Below are positions 1 to 22,462 of a stretch of 23,304 bases of DNA, in pieces (position 1 is the first letter of the stretch; each line of letters begins with the position of its first letter). Origin of the DNA: a virus. Both the position numbers and the translations under genes were made by a program. Under the pieces are notes generated by a model. The model saw only the letters and a list, made by a program, of their open reading frames with translations, did not search any database and had not been told where the DNA came from. The stretch is taken from the IMG/VR virus record IMGVR_UViG_3300025671_000546, positions 1 through 23,304 of that record; one strand, written 5' to 3'.

Positions 1-179
1 CGCTTACGCTTCTTCGAAGCGTTCTTCTTGGTGGACTCCAAAGAGTCCAAGTACGCCATCAGGTCACGAACGGCGGCTTTCGCCTCCTTGACTCGACCTT
101 CGGTCGTTGAGAAAGATGCAGCGTTCACTGCTGACTTAACTGCTTTCAGCAGTTCTACTCGGTTGGTTTGATTGTTCAT
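1..179 (-). CDS. Partial hypothetical protein, lysine-rich helical
   Basis: A leftward reading frame starts with ATG at 179 and stays open to the window edge (59 codons seen), so the C-terminus is missing. The visible part begins MNNQTNRVELLKAVKSAV, is predicted largely helical, and becomes very basic near the edge (about residue 50 on: STKKNASKKRK). I do not recognise the family. A nucleic-acid-binding role is possible from the basic tail but is only inference. The gene is divergent from the rest of the left end and has a good upstream promoter: TACCTTTG on the minus strand at 238-231 with a TTTG at 263-260, giving a leader of about 51 nt. Confidence 0.6.
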   Translation of the reverse strand, partial: MNNQTNRVELLKAVKSAVNAASFSTTEGRVKEAKAAVRDLMAYLDSLESTKKNASKKRK

Positions 180-697: not shown

Positions 698-880
698 CTT
701 AGAAGTATCTAAGCTGTTCTATGACAATAAGTTAGACCTATTTACTTAACCTAATGCTCTAGCTGATTCATAAGTCAGAAATCTGCTGTAACTTCGCCTC
801 GAAGCAAACGAGAAAGAGAAGCTTCTTAAGTAAATAAGGGAAAAGCTTCTAAGCAGTCTTAGGAAATGTAAGAACATTTC
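698..880. ncRNA. Cluster of inverted repeats, possible structured RNA or origin
   Basis: Several dyads lie in about 180 bases: hairpin CTTAGA/TCTAAG with loop AGTA (698-713); long-range stem CCTATTTACTTAA (737-749) pairing with TTAAGTAAATA-A-GG (826-839) with one bulged A; inside it CTGATT/AGTCAG with loop CATA (763-778) and CTTCG/CGAAG with loop CCT (792-804); palindrome AGAAGCTTCT (817-826); then tandem hairpins CTAAG/CTTAG (849-862) and GAAATGT/ACATTTC (863-880). The arrangement resembles a multi-branched RNA fold closed by a long stem. A DNA role (origin, operator array) would fit equally well, and the strand is unknown. Confidence 0.35.
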
Positions 881-923
881 AAGCTGTTACTTTATTGCTG
901 AATAGGCACAAGAACTATCTTCT

Positions 924-931
924 TATATTTG
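924..931 (+). promoter_or_regulatory. TATATTTG promoter box for 936 gene
   Basis: TATATTTG is an exact match to TAnnTTTG. Only 4 nt separate it from the ATG at 936, so transcription should start at or very near the ATG and the mRNA would be leaderless or nearly so. No clear -33 element is seen. Confidence 0.65.
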
Positions 932-935
932 TAGC

Positions 936-1175
936 ATGAAAGCAGTAAAGAAAGCCTCAACTGGCGCGATCGTGAATGGTGATCCTAAATACATCAAAAC
1001 CAAAAAGAAGCTGAAGCAGGAGAAAGAAACTCCGAAGGCTTTTACCATGACCATTACCCCAAAGGACCCTAAGATGAACCTCCCTGGAATGACTAAGGTT
1101 CTGCAAGAGCTTGGTCTTGTAGCAGGCGGTAAGGATAAGATGGCATTCACCAAGACGAAGACTAAGAAATCCTAA
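936..1175 (+). CDS. Small basic hypothetical protein
   Basis: A 79-residue, lysine-rich protein (MKAVKKAS...; C-terminus ...TKTKTKKS). A glycine/proline-containing segment NLPGMTKVLQELGLVAGG lies at about residues 48-65. No family is recognised. The start at 936 is chosen because it follows the TATATTTG box by 4 nt and because the next gene has the same arrangement. With the following gene it forms a rightward pair at the far left of the structural region. A virion-associated role is possible from the basic composition but unproven. Confidence 0.7.
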   Translation: MKAVKKASTGAIVNGDPKYIKTKKKLKQEKETPKAFTMTITPKDPKMNLPGMTKVLQELGLVAGGKDKMAFTKTKTKKS

Positions 1176-5469: not shown

Positions 5470-5543
5470 GCCCTCGTAGCTCAGTTGGATAGAGCATTTG
5501 CCTTCTAAGCAAACGGTCACAGGTTCGAATCCTGTCGGGGGTA
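5470..5543 (+). tRNA. tRNA-Arg (anticodon TCT)
   Basis: A normal cloverleaf: acceptor GCCCTCG (5470-5476) with CGGGGGT (5536-5542, two G-T pairs), a normal D-arm with GCTC/GAGC, anticodon stem TTTGC/GCAAA with loop CTTCTAA (anticodon TCT, reading AGA), T-arm ACAGG-TTCGAAT-CCTGT, discriminator A. CCA is not encoded (CTA follows), unlike the neighbouring tRNA-like sequence. AGA codons look frequent in the window's genes, so the tRNA may support phage codon use. Confidence 0.9.
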
Positions 5544-5557
5544 CTAAATTTACAACC

Positions 5558-5746
5558 ATGGCAGAATACATTTGCAAGTGCGAAGAAGCACACGAAGAAA
5601 ACAAGAGCGGAGTCACCATCAGGTTTGGTGAAGACGGCGCTTACCACGACATCAAGTGTCCGTGCGGAAAGTACATGGAGCTTAAGAACCCAAAGACAGG
5701 GGCACCTAAGCTTGGTCGAATGGATAGTCTCGGCAGAAGCTACTGA
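5558..5746 (+). CDS. Small zinc-ribbon-like protein
   Basis: A 62-residue protein starting MAEYICKCEEAH. CKC (6-8) and CPC (34-36: KCPCGK) form two cysteine knuckles that would suit a small zinc ribbon. The start at 5558 is preferred over in-frame upstream starts because those would lie within the tRNA-Arg. The stop overlaps the terminase start (TGATG, 5744-5748), so it is probably translated together with TerL. Function is unknown; small zinc-binding proteins next to terminases are sometimes DNA-packaging accessories. Confidence 0.65.
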   Translation: MAEYICKCEEAHEENKSGVTIRFGEDGAYHDIKCPCGKYMELKNPKTGAPKLGRMDSLGRSY

Positions 5747-7872
5747 TGTCTGTTCTCGTAGACATAGATGGATACGAAGATAAAGGGATTAAGATCGACC
5801 CTAACGGTTCGGAAGGTGAGGCTATTGAACTCCATGGGCTTCTTGTTGTCCTCCCGAAAAAACCAAAGCGATCTGAAATACTCTTCCATGACCAGCCAAA
5901 GGCTATGCAGATGTGGCGACGCATTCCTATGCCCAAAGAGCTGCAAATGGTTAGAAGTATGGATGAGTGGTTCGAGAACCCTCCCGAGTTTAGAAAGAAG
6001 TTTTCTGGTTACATCGAGAAGGAGTTTGAGCGCAGGCGCAACGGTGTTTGGTTTTACAATCATGGCGTCCCTACGTATATTACGGGAAGGCACTACATGC
6101 TCTTACAATGGTCCAACATCGATATCGGCGCCCCGTATTATCTTGCGTTCCAACGTGAAATCTTTATCCACATGGCTGCGTGCGAAGCTGATCCCCGTTG
6201 TGTCGGTCAGCTTTATACTAAGTGTCGCCGTTCTGGGTATACTAATATCTGTTCTTCTGTTCTTGTTGACGAAGCTACGCAGGTTAAAGACAAGCTTCTT
6301 GGGATTCAGTCGAAGACTGGTAAGGATTCTCAAGAGAACATTTTCATGAAGAAGGTCGTTCCGATCTTCAAGTCATACCCGTTCTTTTTCAAACCCATCC
6401 AAGATGGTACAACTAACCCGCGCATGGAGTTGGCTTTCCGCGAACCATCCAAGCGAATTACGAAGAATAACAAGACGTCATACAAAGGTGACGCTCTGAA
6501 CACGATCATCAACTGGAAGAATACCACGAATAACGCATACGACGGGGAGAAGCTACACATGCTATACCTGGATGAGGCGGGTAAATGGGAGAAGCCAGTT
6601 GACATACGAGAGGCATGGCGAATTGAAAGAACCTGCCTTATTGTCGGTAAAAAGGTGGTTGGCAAGGCTCTTGTAGGGAGTACGGTAAACCCAATGGACA
6701 AGGGCGGAAACGAGTACAAAGTCCTTTGGGAAGACTCTAATCCGAATGAACGCAATGCAAATGGTAGGACTAAAAGCGGACTCTATCGCATCTTTATACC
6801 AGCTTACGATGCCCTCGAAGGTTTCTTTGATCGCTATGGTAATCCCGTTACCGAAGACCCTGACAATCCCGTTGAAGGTATCGACGGTGAGCTCATCGAA
6901 ACTGGGGCGAAGACGTACCTGAAGAATGAGAGAGACAGCCTCAAGGATGACGCCTCTGAACTGAACGAAGTTGTCAGGCAGTTCCCCTTTACAGAGGAAG
7001 AGGCTTTCAGGGATAGCATCGAGGGGAGCCTGTTCAATGTGGGCAAGATCTACCAGCAGATAGATCACAACAACGACCTGTATCCAAACCCTGTGGTCAG
7101 GGGTAACTTCATGTGGAAGGAGAAGGACAAAGAGGTTATATTCTCTCCTGATCCTAACGGTAGGTTCCACGTAGCTTGGCAGCCTGCCGCTGCAGACAGA
7201 AACAAATTCATCGATGAACGCGGAAAGAAAAAACCTGGGAATAGCCACATTGGTTGTGGCGGTGTTGACTCTTATGACCTCGATCAAACTGTTGACGGAA
7301 GGGGGTCCAAAGGAGCTTTACATATGTACAACAAGTTCAACATGCACGCCCCCGCAAACATGTTCGTTGTTGAGTATGCTTCCCGACCTGACCTCGCCAG
7401 CATTTTCTACGAAGACGTCCTTATGTGTGCCTTCTACTACGGCTATCCACTCCTCGTGGAAAACAATAAGTACGGCATCGTAAGATACTTTGAGTCAAGA
7501 GGTTACGATGGCTACTTAATGGATAGGCCAGCCCACTTAGCCTCTTCTAGTTCTAAGGCGAATGTCAAGACGAAAGGCATCCCTTCGAACTCGCAAGACG
7601 TAATTCAATCTCACGCGCAAGCCATTGAGACTTATATCCACGATCACGTAGGAGAGAACTCAGAGACAGGGGAGATGGGTAAGATGTATCTTAACAGAAC
7701 TCTTGAGGATTGGATAGGCTATAAGATCTCAAACAGAACCAAGTTTGACTTGACCATTAGCTCGGGACTGGCTCTTCTTGGATCACAAAAAGTCAAAGCG
7801 GAGAAACCCAAGTCTAACTTCAACGAGAAGAAATTCTTTAGGCAGCATAAGATAAAACACTGGCACTCGTAA
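5746..7872 (+). CDS. terL: Terminase large subunit
   Basis: A 708-residue packaging motor: an N-terminal ATPase pumps DNA into the prohead and a C-terminal RNase H-like nuclease cuts concatemers. ATPase motifs: the Walker A-like TKCRRSGYTN (158-167), where the usual lysine before Thr is replaced by Tyr; Walker B HMLYLDE (271-277); motif III VGSTVN (310-315). Nuclease: an acidic residue in GGVDSYD (D508), then LLVENN (E572) and TKFDLT (D668) are the likely metal ligands. N- and C-terminal extensions are modest. It starts within the stop of the zinc-ribbon gene and ends 19 bases before the portal gene, which has its own promoter. The whole fits large terminases of Bacteroidota podoviruses. Confidence 0.9.
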   Translation: MSVLVDIDGYEDKGIKIDPNGSEGEAIELHGLLVVLPKKPKRSEILFHDQPKAMQMWRRIPMPKELQMVRSMDEWFENPPEFRKKFSGYIEKEFERRRNGVWFYNHGVPTYITGRHYMLLQWSNIDIGAPYYLAFQREIFIHMAACEADPRCVGQLYTKCRRSGYTNICSSVLVDEATQVKDKLLGIQSKTGKDSQENIFMKKVVPIFKSYPFFFKPIQDGTTNPRMELAFREPSKRITKNNKTSYKGDALNTIINWKNTTNNAYDGEKLHMLYLDEAGKWEKPVDIREAWRIERTCLIVGKKVVGKALVGSTVNPMDKGGNEYKVLWEDSNPNERNANGRTKSGLYRIFIPAYDALEGFFDRYGNPVTEDPDNPVEGIDGELIETGAKTYLKNERDSLKDDASELNEVVRQFPFTEEEAFRDSIEGSLFNVGKIYQQIDHNNDLYPNPVVRGNFMWKEKDKEVIFSPDPNGRFHVAWQPAAADRNKFIDERGKKKPGNSHIGCGGVDSYDLDQTVDGRGSKGALHMYNKFNMHAPANMFVVEYASRPDLASIFYEDVLMCAFYYGYPLLVENNKYGIVRYFESRGYDGYLMDRPAHLASSSSKANVKTKGIPSNSQDVIQSHAQAIETYIHDHVGENSETGEMGKMYLNRTLEDWIGYKISNRTKFDLTISSGLALLGSQKVKAEKPKSNFNEKKFFRQHKIKHWHS

Positions 7873-7891: not shown

Positions 7892-10363
7892 ATGTACGGG
7901 GACAATAAACCAACTAAAAAAGGATTTCCCAGTCCTCTTGAAACAAGAGAGGTCAAAGAAAGCAACTCCTATGGCCTTCAGTATGCGAAGGCTATTGAGA
8001 ATCAGTGGGGAACTCTCGATAGGGAGAACACCCTGATGAGGCGCAGAAGGGATACCTTCCTTAAGAACCGAGCTTACGCTAACGGAACTCAAGACACCGC
8101 TATCTATCGTCAGCTCCTGACTAGCATGGACCCCAACAACGGGGATGGCAGCTTCCTTAACCTGGATTTTACTCCAGTACCTATACTCCCGAAGTTCGCT
8201 AGAATTGTAGTGAACAAGATTCTCTCTAGAGAACCGTACCCAAACCTAGAGGCCGTCGATCCTCTCTCTTCTTCTGAAAAGGATAGAGAGCGCAAGAAGA
8301 TGGAGGCTCTCATCGAAGCCAAGAAGGATCTCAAAGACATCAAGGACAAGACTGGTGTAGACGTAGCTAATGTCGAATCCCTGCCAGATACTCTTGAGGA
8401 GGCGGAGATCTTTATGGGGAACAATATCAAGTCCTCTTCTGAGATCGCTGCTCAGATCGCAACCAACATGACGCTTCAGTGGAATGACTTCCACGATTCT
8501 ATCTACAGGAGATCCGTAAAGGATATCGTAGATCTCGGCATGGCTGTTGTCAAAAGAAGCAACGATCCCAACTACGGCATTGTCACTGAGTACGTTGACC
8601 CTATCGACTTCGTGCACAATGAAGTGAAAGACCCTTCGTTCGGGGATATGATCTACGCAGGTCACATCAAGCGGATGCCTATCCATGAGCTTAAGAGATT
8701 GGCTGGGGATCAGTTGACCGAGGAGGACTATAAGAAGATTGCCGACACAGTAAAGTCAAAGAGCCAGAATAAGTCTCATAGAATGTCTCAGTCTACCTAC
8801 GATCCCGAAACGAATCGTAGTCACTACGGGTATGACGAGTTTATGGTTGACGTTCTTGAGTTCGAGTTCTTGTCCGTTGACAAGATGTACTTCGAAGAGA
8901 AAGAGAGCAGGTACGGTAACGTAGGCTTCTATGCCAAAGAAGAAGGCTATAAGGCCCCAGAGAATTCTGTTTACAGACGTGAGGTCAAGTGCCTTGAGAA
9001 CGAGACTGTCTACGGAGGTTACTACGTGCTTGGATGCGATAAGCTCTTCAGCTACGGCATGAAGACCAACATCCCTAAGAACCTCTACGACCTTTCAAAG
9101 GCAAACCTCTCTTACTCTGTTGTCGCAACGAACATGGACAACATGATGCCTAAGTCTATGGTGAATAGCTGCATCGGGTTTGCTGACCAGCTCCAGCTTA
9201 CGCACCTTAAGATCCAGCAGGCTATCGCTAAGGCTAAGCCAGATGGCATCATCATTGACATCGAAGGTCTGGAGAATGTCCAGCTCGGAAAGGGTGGAGA
9301 GTTGCAGCCATTGGAGCTCCATGACATCTACGAACAAACGGGTGTATTTTACTACAGAAGCAAGAACCCAGAAGGTGGATTCCAAAACCCACCGATCAGA
9401 GAGATCGGGAATGCTGTTCGTAACATCAATGAATTCATTGGGTTGTACAACCACTACCTGCGCCTCATCAGAGACACCACAGGTATCAATGAGATGATGG
9501 ATGCTTCTACGCCTAAGGGGGATACTCTCGTGGGTGTTCAGCAGCAAGCAATCGCAGCTGGTAACAATGCTATCTACGACATGACGCACGCATCCATTGT
9601 GCTCTTTAAGAAGGTGTGCTCTGACATCGTCAAGTGTCTGCAGATCCTTCCAGTGGGTAGCGTCATTTACGAGGCATACGCTAACGCTGTAGGTGAGGCT
9701 AACATGGAGGTGCTCTCTTCATTTGATGACCTGCCTATGTACAACTTCGGTGTGCGTATCGTTAAAGAGATGGAGGATGCTGAGCGTCAGTACCTTGAGC
9801 AGAACATCCAGGTAGCCCTTGCTCAGAAAGAACTCGACATCGAAGATGCCATTGCTATACGACAGCTTAAAGACGTGAATCAAGCCGAGAGGCTTCTCAT
9901 TGTTCGCAGAGCGAAGCGTATGGCTAGAGCCCAGCAAATGGCTATGCAGAACTCTCAGCAGCAAGCTCAGATCCAGCAGCAGTCAGCTCAGGCAGCTTCT
10001 CAGGCGCGTCAGCAAGAGCTTCAGATGGAGGCTCAGCTTAAGGCGCAAGAACTGCAAATGAAAGCTCAGCTCGACATGCAGATGGAGCAGGTTAAGCACC
10101 AGTTCCGTAAGGAGATCGAACTTATCAGAGCTCAAGCAACTCTCGGATTTAGAACAGAAGAGCAAGAGTTCAAAGAGAAGCTCGAAGTTCTCAAAGAGGA
10201 TCGAAAGGACGAGCGCGTCGAGAAGCAAGCAGTGGAGCAAAGCAAGCTTATCTCTCAGAGAAAAGGAGAGAGATCAGAGCTCACAGAGGGTCCTGAGACT
10301 CAAGTCGGTGGGCCTCAAAACGTAGATGATATCGTTAAAAACATTATTGAGCAGGGCGCTTGA
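7892..10363 (+). CDS. Portal protein
   Basis: An 823-residue protein directly after the terminase. The region of about 200-560 has portal-like character: a helical stem and wing area with acidic and amphipathic helices, and RDTTGINEMMDASTPKGDTLVGVQQQAI (about 527-554), a segment typical of phage portals. Residues about 674-790 are a long Q/A/R-rich coiled coil (repeats of QLKAQELQMKAQ type) that may form the barrel or a DNA-contacting crown. Portals form the dodecameric ring through which DNA passes and on which head and tail join. The length is large for a portal but suits crAss-like and related phages. It starts 5 nt after a TATATTTG box. Confidence 0.85.
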   Translation: MYGDNKPTKKGFPSPLETREVKESNSYGLQYAKAIENQWGTLDRENTLMRRRRDTFLKNRAYANGTQDTAIYRQLLTSMDPNNGDGSFLNLDFTPVPILPKFARIVVNKILSREPYPNLEAVDPLSSSEKDRERKKMEALIEAKKDLKDIKDKTGVDVANVESLPDTLEEAEIFMGNNIKSSSEIAAQIATNMTLQWNDFHDSIYRRSVKDIVDLGMAVVKRSNDPNYGIVTEYVDPIDFVHNEVKDPSFGDMIYAGHIKRMPIHELKRLAGDQLTEEDYKKIADTVKSKSQNKSHRMSQSTYDPETNRSHYGYDEFMVDVLEFEFLSVDKMYFEEKESRYGNVGFYAKEEGYKAPENSVYRREVKCLENETVYGGYYVLGCDKLFSYGMKTNIPKNLYDLSKANLSYSVVATNMDNMMPKSMVNSCIGFADQLQLTHLKIQQAIAKAKPDGIIIDIEGLENVQLGKGGELQPLELHDIYEQTGVFYYRSKNPEGGFQNPPIREIGNAVRNINEFIGLYNHYLRLIRDTTGINEMMDASTPKGDTLVGVQQQAIAAGNNAIYDMTHASIVLFKKVCSDIVKCLQILPVGSVIYEAYANAVGEANMEVLSSFDDLPMYNFGVRIVKEMEDAERQYLEQNIQVALAQKELDIEDAIAIRQLKDVNQAERLLIVRRAKRMARAQQMAMQNSQQQAQIQQQSAQAASQARQQELQMEAQLKAQELQMKAQLDMQMEQVKHQFRKEIELIRAQATLGFRTEEQEFKEKLEVLKEDRKDERVEKQAVEQSKLISQRKGERSELTEGPETQVGGPQNVDDIVKNIIEQGA

Positions 10364-18038: not shown

Positions 18039-18052
18039 GACAATAGAGTCTA

Positions 18053-18088
18053 TAAAGAGAGGGGCCATCGAGCCCCTTTCTTTGTTTT
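18053..18088 (+). terminator. Intrinsic terminator
   Basis: GGGGC (18061-18065), loop CATCGA, GCCCC (18072-18076), then TTTCTTTGTTTT. The stem is extended by AAAGAGA on the left with TTTCTTT on the right. A TATATTTG promoter box follows directly at 18090. Confidence 0.85.
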
Positions 18089-18089
18089 G

Positions 18090-18097
18090 TATATTTG
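18090..18097 (+). promoter_or_regulatory. TATATTTG promoter box for 18102 gene
   Basis: TATATTTG is 4 nt before ATG 18102 and starts right after the T-tract of the terminator. The junction TTGTATATTTGCGTTATG is the same as at 22452-22469. Confidence 0.7.
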
Positions 18098-21543: not shown

Positions 21544-21590
21544 CGAGGGGGAGAAACGGTCTCCCTCTCTTTTACTTCTTTTTTCTTTTT
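21544..21590 (+). terminator. Intrinsic terminator after capsid gene
   Basis: GAGGGGGAGA, loop AACGG, TCTCCCTCTC, then TTTTACTTCTTTTTTCTTTTT. The core stem is GGGAGA/TCTCCC. It lies just before the next gene (21608), which has no visible promoter, so some read-through is likely. Confidence 0.75.
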
Positions 21591-21607: not shown

Positions 21608-22420
21608 ATGGCAACTAAATCAACGCCTCGTAAGAGAGCGAGCAGCACGCCGAAAGCGGCTATCACAATTCCCCACGACTCCAAGAGAAAAGCACCTAGT
21701 GGAGAGAGGAATTCAAGACTCATGTATGAGTACAGAATGGACAGCCCTAGCGGAGCTCTGTACCTCATGAGAGACACCACATACAACTACTACGACGAAG
21801 AGAAAAACAAAGTACGCGGTGTACGATACTGCGAAGGAGAGACATCTATCTTCGTTGATGAGCAATCAGAAAACCCCGTAAAGACTCCGCTCACATTTAA
21901 GATGGGAGTCATGGTGGTTCCTAAGTCAAAGCCCAACCTCATCGAGTTTCTAGACAAGCATCCAGGAAACCGCGCCAATGGAGGCAACAAGTTTCACTTG
22001 GTAGACTATGTAGCGAAGAAGCAAGCTAGTCTCGACGAAGAGTTCGTGGCTGCAGATGCAATCGTCATGCTTAGAACAAAGCCAGTAGAAGAGCTTCTTA
22101 TGGTAGCTACTGCTTACGGCATGAATACAGACAGGGAGTTCGCTGAGATTAAACACGACTTGCTTCAGAAGGCGAAGGTTAACCCAGCAGGCTTCATGAA
22201 GTCATTCGATGACCCATCAGTGAAGATGAAGTCTAAGATCAACTCAGCAGTCAACTATCAGATCATCAAGCTTGACGACGATGCTGTTCGTTGGTTTGAC
22301 ACTGGACAGCAGATCATTTCTGTTCCAGCAGGCATGGACCCACTCAATGTGTTTGTCCGATACTGCCTAACAGAGAAAGCAGTTCCTATCGTAGAAGAGA
22401 TAGATAAACAGCTTCAGTAA
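21608..22420 (+). CDS. Hypothetical protein downstream of capsid gene
   Basis: A 270-residue protein with a basic N-terminus (MATKSTPRKRASSTPKAA). The region of about 40-140 is beta-rich (YEYRMDSPSGALYLMRDTTYNYYDEE...) and contains PNLIEFLDKHPGNRANGG (about 110-127). The C-terminal half is helical (ADAIVMLRTKPVEELLMVATAYGM...). No family is recognised. Position between capsid and connector genes suggests a head decoration or assembly protein. It lacks its own obvious promoter and is followed by a strong terminator. Confidence 0.75.
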   Translation: MATKSTPRKRASSTPKAAITIPHDSKRKAPSGERNSRLMYEYRMDSPSGALYLMRDTTYNYYDEEKNKVRGVRYCEGETSIFVDEQSENPVKTPLTFKMGVMVVPKSKPNLIEFLDKHPGNRANGGNKFHLVDYVAKKQASLDEEFVAADAIVMLRTKPVEELLMVATAYGMNTDREFAEIKHDLLQKAKVNPAGFMKSFDDPSVKMKSKINSAVNYQIIKLDDDAVRWFDTGQQIISVPAGMDPLNVFVRYCLTEKAVPIVEEIDKQLQ

Positions 22421-22453
22421 GAGAAGGCCCCTGAGAAGGGGCTTTTTCTTTTT
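22421..22453 (+). terminator. Intrinsic terminator
   Basis: GCCCC (22427-22431), loop TGAGAA, GGGGC (22438-22442), then TTTTTCTTTTT. A TATATTTG box follows at 22455, in the same way as at 18061-18097. Confidence 0.85.
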
Positions 22454-22454
22454 G

Positions 22455-22462
22455 TATATTTG
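22455..22462 (+). promoter_or_regulatory. TATATTTG promoter box for 22467 gene
   Basis: TATATTTG is 4 nt before ATG 22467 and begins right after the terminator T-tract. TTGTATATTTGCGTTATG is shared with 18087-18104. Confidence 0.7.

Follow-up and report, generated by a model that had tools for sequence, protein, structure and literature searches.

A conserved promoter and hairpin element at the divergence of replication and virion genes in a group of marine phages

The divergent junction and its genes

The window (the whole 23,304-nucleotide stretch analysed, a 23.3-kb virus record) carries a terminase gene (5746-7872), a portal gene (7892-10363) and further virion genes, with a tRNA-Arg (TCT) gene at 5470-5544 between structural genes. 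Judged by the terminase, its nearest named relatives are phages of Flavobacterium, Cellulophaga and Maribacter and one Manatee Spring podovirus genome, with best identities of 39-48%, and no named phage matched the window at the DNA level. These comparisons place it in a family of uncultivated marine phages, related to the Elemovirus-type phages and probably infecting Bacteroidota, a host phylum that we infer from the terminase relatives together with the promoter boxes.

At the left end, the first gene of the leftward block (1-178, minus strand, beginning MNNQTNRVELLKAVKSAVNAA) is cut by the end of the contig, and its start is homologous in L006, L007 and most relatives, where it lies at about -600. 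The first rightward gene (936-1175, plus strand) encodes 79 amino acids and occupies a slot that holds different genes in different phages. Between the gene starting at 178 and the one starting at 936 is a non-coding gap that is kept in the terminase relatives. A first-pass annotation had described a gene-free cluster of inverted repeats at 698-880; this stretch does fall within the gap, free of any known gene, and the inverted repeats are present where they had been placed.

The wider arrangement can be followed in G004, a related genome of 62.9 kb that is probably complete, since it has an 81-bp terminal repeat. Its minus-strand block of about 16 kb encodes a class II ribonucleotide reductase, a DnaB-like primase-helicase, an exonuclease VIII and a Myb/HTH-type protein, its plus-strand block of about 46 kb holds the virion genes, and the junction sits between the two. 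Four other long contigs have the same layout, with the replication block to the left of the junction and the virion block to its right.

Contig ends cluster to the left of the element: 21 of 50 related IMG/VR contigs end within 1000 nt on that side (3.0 expected if uniform) and one ends on the right, and the window's own start lies 786 nt to the left. This clustering is probably an assembly break zone, and it may mark a physical end of the genome. Perfect hairpins of at least 7 bp are concentrated near the same end of the window, where four of nine fall within 1-310, three of them inside the left gene.

Conserved promoters, hairpins and tail

The comparison covered terminase relatives, about 50 further contigs from a motif scan and contigs similar to the window. 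More than 50 relatives share, at one site, a promoter of the TAnnTTTG type, a leader of 110-140 nt with a covarying hairpin, and a conserved tail. The common order begins some 600 nt to the left with the minus-strand gene, followed by a structured region of about 240 nt (Part A) and, in many phages, by two TTATNNACR repeats at -115 and -103. Then comes CTTGACTTT-(A-rich)-TGTAACTTYGCC, which corresponds to TTG plus TAnnTTYG as in the Bacteroidota promoter, and finally Part B, of about 110-140 nt, which ends where homology stops sharply at GGCGCAAAAACTGT, at ACTGT; beyond this the phages differ. Since the first rightward gene varies between phages where it can be read, the element does not belong to any particular gene. 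The different genes found to the right of the ACTGT end make this position a cargo slot adjoining the conserved junction.

In Bacteroidota, the -7 box TAnnTTTG spans -12 to -5 (PMC9723704). The corresponding rightward box in the window, TAACTTCG (789-796, plus strand), gives a predicted +1 at 801. Its eight columns, TGTAACTT, are invariant in 40 aligned relatives; nearly all relatives read TAACTTYG and about eight have the exact TTTG, and the window reads TTCG, one mismatch. The -33 TTG, present as TTGACTTT in most relatives, is absent from the window clade, and in F. johnsoniae, according to PMC7366714, no -33 element could be detected. On the minus strand, a -7 box, TACCTTTG (231-238), is found about 50 nt before the left gene, and many relatives carry a minus-strand TAnnTTTG at about -555 to -490.

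Downstream of the element, most relatives, the window included, have a second promoter, predicted to be leaderless. In the window this is TATATTTG (924-931, plus strand), whose predicted +1, with the box position taken from PMC9723704, is the A of the ATG at 936. L070, L114, L123, L137 and L142 have the ATG directly after Part B and no second box. Boxes of the TATATTTG form stand 4-5 nt before the ATG of six plus-strand genes in the window (boxes at 924, 1181, 7879, 10790, 18090 and 22455), and because such a box spans -12 to -5, the predicted +1 falls on the A of the ATG in five of the six, which would make them leaderless; leaderless mRNAs account for only 3.7-5.5% of host mRNAs. The rightward block contains at least three strong intrinsic terminators (18052-18085, 21545-21569 and 22419-22450). 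At 18052-18097 and 22419-22462, a strong intrinsic terminator is followed at once by a leaderless promoter, and these pairs look like ready-made gene insulation units.

The predicted leader RNA (Part B; 801-918, plus strand) runs to the end of homology. It comprises a stem-loop P1 (817-850; 817-824 pairing with 843-850), a stem-loop formed by P2 and P3 (852-888; 852-856/884-888, 858-860/881-883 and 863-869/874-880) and a conserved 3′ tail, GCTGAATAGGCACAAGAACTAT (897-918), which is also kept in L019, L074 and L088. We described the element with a covariance model, R1, which has two helices (P1 as AGCUUC/GAAGCU, and the central hairpin P3) and was built from six sequences. Of 66 related loci, 48 matched R1 with E below 1e-10, and there were three weak matches to the tail only. 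In the resulting alignment 91.6% of cells are paired, double-sided changes occur in 10 of 12 pairs, double-change cells number 110 vs 30 in shuffles, and covariation scores 0.493, where shuffles give 0.153 and slid controls no more than 0.08; all these figures are inflated because the alignment was fitted to the model. Within the R1 alignment, P3 is paired in 97% of cells, with double changes in five of six pairs, and inspection of the raw sequences shows it directly, as ATTACTT/AAGTAAT, GTGCGT/ACGCAC, GTTGTAT/ATACAAC, GTTTGTC/GACAAAC, GTTTGC/GCAAAC, ATGTGTG/CACACAT and AATGCG/CGCATT. The P1 analogue AGCUUC/GAAGCU covaries in the clades other than that of the window. RNAalifold on a plain MAFFT alignment of 40 relatives returned almost nothing, since the variable hairpin was misaligned there, a problem that the covariance model solved.

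The window is a member of a clade that has diverged: it did not reach E<0.1 against the whole of R1, and its best match is limited to the 3′ tail. Its hairpin at 863-880 nevertheless occupies the place equivalent to P3 of the other clades, and new perfect P3 stems are found elsewhere in the window clade (GAGATGT/ACATCTC in L286 and TAGATC/GATCTA in L291). P1 and P2 are kept in this clade, partly through wobble pairs; 82% of P1 cells are paired, with AGAAG/CTTCT changed to GGAAG/CTTCC in L291, and P2 shows nine one-sided changes that retain a wobble pair. A column count within the clade gave two double changes, a result that is weak by itself, as it comes from only seven sequences. The two-hairpin module of the window (815-890) folds better than shuffled sequence (z -3.17 on the plus strand and -3.95 on the minus strand, none of 200 shuffles equalling it on either), values that are supporting and not independent, since the boundaries were chosen after the comparison. 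In a search for an intrinsic terminator, P3 lacked an immediately following T run on both strands, whether in the window or in the relatives.

Part A (424-653 in the window) has conserved blocks at about 527-560 and 618-646 in a wide alignment and a closing helix at 432-438/626-632 (GGGGATT/AATCCCC), which says little by itself because it is nearly invariant. Across 16 relatives, 91.3% of the cells of the consensus structure are paired, with a covariation score of 0.320 vs at most 0.13 in slid controls, and folds of single relatives gave z values of -5.5 and -4.0. For the window's copy of Part A, folding does not beat shuffled sequence (z -0.98 and +0.58). With the leftward promoter to its left and the rightward promoter to its right, Part A is seemingly in neither mRNA, and we found no promoter of its own.

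As far as sequence comparison goes, the promoter, the position of the hairpin and the tail are conserved, P3 and P1 carry compensatory changes, and the element lies where the replication and virion genes diverge. The junction, at which the reading of genes diverges and pairing is kept while letters change, is very likely a working control element, and one that has apparently not been described in this marine phage group. In the window and five relatives, no Rfam family except tRNA reached its gathering score and relaxed scans gave chance-level matches only; literature searches returned nothing on this element; and in bacterial genomes 107 pattern hits were close to chance by a rough estimate, while 100 scanned with R1 gave 0 matches. 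The early-to-late switch of Bacteroidota phages is little known, and this element lies at the single junction that feeds both gene blocks; absent from Rfam, it offers a defined target for work on leader-RNA control or origin function.

Leader RNA, replication origin and other readings

Pairing statistics bear on whether the element works as RNA or as DNA. P3 is strictly Watson-Crick (271 Watson-Crick cells, 1 G-T and 0 A-C), and two hairpins of Part A are strictly or almost strictly so. P1 has 22 G-T and 15 A-C cells, and the alignment favours G-U. In 38 relatives of other clades, the core folds with a mean z of -2.50 on the minus strand vs -1.25 on the plus strand, and the P2 changes in the window clade are in the G-U manner of a plus-strand RNA. 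Neither covariation nor the folding comparison of the two strands settles RNA against DNA or the strand; the promoter evidence points to Part B being a plus-strand RNA. An N4-type hairpin promoter for a virion RNA polymerase was considered because P3 is without G-U pairs, and was rejected, the giant virion protein of G004 having no polymerase motif or match.

The reading that we tentatively favour is that of a promoter and a structured leader RNA heading the rightward operon and possibly acting on polymerase as the put RNA of HK022 does. A host-type sigma-A promoter (TAACTTCG) would start the rightward transcript near 801, and the first ~118 nt of this presumed transcript would form the two stem-loops (817-850 and 852-888) and end in the conserved tail just before the first gene. 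By analogy we infer that the leader would act in cis on the transcribing polymerase, making it resistant to pausing and termination, so that it could pass the terminators in the rightward block of ~46 kb. The likeness to put consists of two stem-loops by a promoter, terminators downstream and independence from the first gene. In the minority of relatives that have no intervening second promoter, the element must be the 5′ leader of the first gene. Against a leader RNA, the strict Watson-Crick pairing of P3 is unusual for a compensating RNA helix and suits a DNA hairpin equally well, the minus strand folds better in other clades, and the window has no -33 TTG, has TTCG instead of TTTG and does not match the whole of R1. 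Read-through may not even be needed, since two of the strong terminators are each followed at once by a promoter of their own. A broader claim seems unlikely, namely that Bacteroidota phages have here a new family of leader RNAs that antiterminate without a protein, stand at the head of the rightward genes, differ in their hairpin from clade to clade and are coupled to a structured origin region to the left.

Because covariation leaves RNA or DNA undecided, we keep as the main rival a reading in terms of DNA, doubtful though it is: the whole junction (about 420-920) would be a replication origin in which the hairpins function at the DNA level, for instance by giving the phage primase-helicase a structured site for entry or priming, and the TTATNNACR repeats would be bound by a DnaA-domain-IV protein. 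The position of the junction at the head of a block with a DnaB-like primase-helicase, a class II ribonucleotide reductase and an exonuclease VIII fits such an origin, as do the placement of Part A between two divergent promoters, seemingly outside both mRNAs, and the strict or almost strict Watson-Crick pairing of P3 and the two Part A hairpins. The paired repeats at -115/-103 in many relatives amount to 2.1 per kb vs a background of 0.39, and stand-alone DnaA domain IV proteins (PF08299) occur in 7 of 16 relatives' records. Among the checked phages with the repeats, G003, G007, G008 and G011 have such a protein. G006 and G001, a near relative of the window, have neither a PF08299 match nor repeats at that position; this link between repeats and protein is suggestive, but the correspondence is imperfect, as G002 has the protein and no repeats at its junction. 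Against an origin, the window clade and the complete G004 have neither the repeats nor a clear PF08299 protein (the G004 hit scores 16 bits vs a cut-off of 31.5), yet the junction is kept in them. GC skew, suggested as a check in the first-pass annotation, cuts both ways: it turns near the junction, but there it also follows gene direction. Stand-alone PF08299 proteins scored above the family cut-off in four phage records (listed: L164-L167, G009, G013, G002 and G011).

It is quite unlikely that the element is a plain 5′ untranslated leader tuning the translation or stability of the first gene while leaving the polymerase unaffected. The first ATG does come directly after the element in some relatives, and Flavobacterium translation depends on mRNA structure rather than on Shine-Dalgarno pairing (PMC6847099). 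However, different phages have different first genes here, mostly served by a leaderless promoter of their own, and under these conditions a leader specific to one gene would not persist. We consider it very unlikely that the structured strand is the minus strand, producing either a small RNA read leftward or a regulatory RNA complementary to the leader. The better minus-strand folding of the core in the 38 relatives and the minus-strand TAnnTTTG boxes to the right of the hairpin in some clades would agree with this, but these minus-strand boxes lack the conservation of the plus-strand box, which is invariant, and the P2 changes of the window clade are of the G-U type on the plus strand.

Scarcely credible, finally, is the multibranched structure that the first-pass annotation drew around a 13-bp stem (737-749/826-839) as the functional fold. 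Besides a structured non-coding RNA, that annotation had offered an origin or an operator array; its general idea of a structured RNA or an origin survives, and the repeats and the conserved control junction are real, but the geometry as drawn is mostly wrong and its nested architecture is not conserved in relatives. Folding of 690-890 gave z -0.95 on the plus strand (30 of 200 shuffles as good as native) and -0.66 on the minus strand, and folding of 735-841 gave -1.18. By the refuting conditions that the annotation itself had named, the drawn structure fails. Across the window and three close relatives, the six drawn helices, the 13-bp stem among them, have 0 double-sided pair changes, and the hairpins 698-713 and 763-778 are broken in close relatives, with only 70.8% pairing. 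The 13-bp stem is present, with one bulge. The window has no longer stem of this type, and a whole-window scan found in it the only uninterrupted stem of at least 11 bp with a loop of 30-130 nt; a stem as long as this uninterrupted run arose in 1 of 150 shuffles of 650-935, so that about half of one such stem is expected over 23 kb and finding one is no surprise. Six of its 13 pairs vary without compensation in close relatives, and two arms taken from one phage pair no better than arms combined across phages. The left arm is a motif that persists in relatives without the right arm, and in such a stem the promoter region would be base-paired to the transcript. These points outweigh a weak observation by eye in L291, where one pair is changed on both sides and some others are G-U. 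Of the remaining drawn hairpins, 792-804 is invariant in the window and three close relatives and overlaps the promoter box, and 863-880 is real, being invariant in close relatives and replaced by other perfect stems in distant ones. Single-sequence folding can thus mislead: the element is real, with a geometry other than the eye-catching one.

Comparison with known systems

The Elemovirus phage of Flavobacterium, vB_FspP_elemoA, and Caudoviricetes sp. MW202828 resemble the window in having a related terminase (39-48% identity) and two divergent gene blocks, but their divergent junctions are only ~145 and 64 nt long, leaving no room for the element. The junction is like a DnaA-box origin in that many relatives have DnaA-box-like repeats, a DnaA domain IV protein and replication genes nearby; unlike such an origin, the window clade is without the repeats, and oriC is not defined by an array of hairpins.

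The nut site of phage lambda (boxA-boxB) has, close to where an operon begins, a hairpin of variable letters beside linear sequence that is conserved. Here too, the letters of the hairpin vary between phages, a conserved linear sequence adjoins it and the operon start is near, but the element keeps no GNRA-like loop, an N-type protein was not found, and the likeness to boxA is one seen by eye.

The put RNA is ~70 nt long and forms two stem-loops just after an early promoter (PMC9378689). HK022, with its putL and putR sites, has another host phylum and another polymerase, and the likeness drawn here concerns overall layout, not sequence and not the details of stems I and II. In that layout, both place two adjacent stem-loops immediately 3′ of the phage promoter that heads a long operon, and they agree in size, at about 72 nt here (817-888, with a predicted promoter box at 789-796) vs ~70 nt in put.
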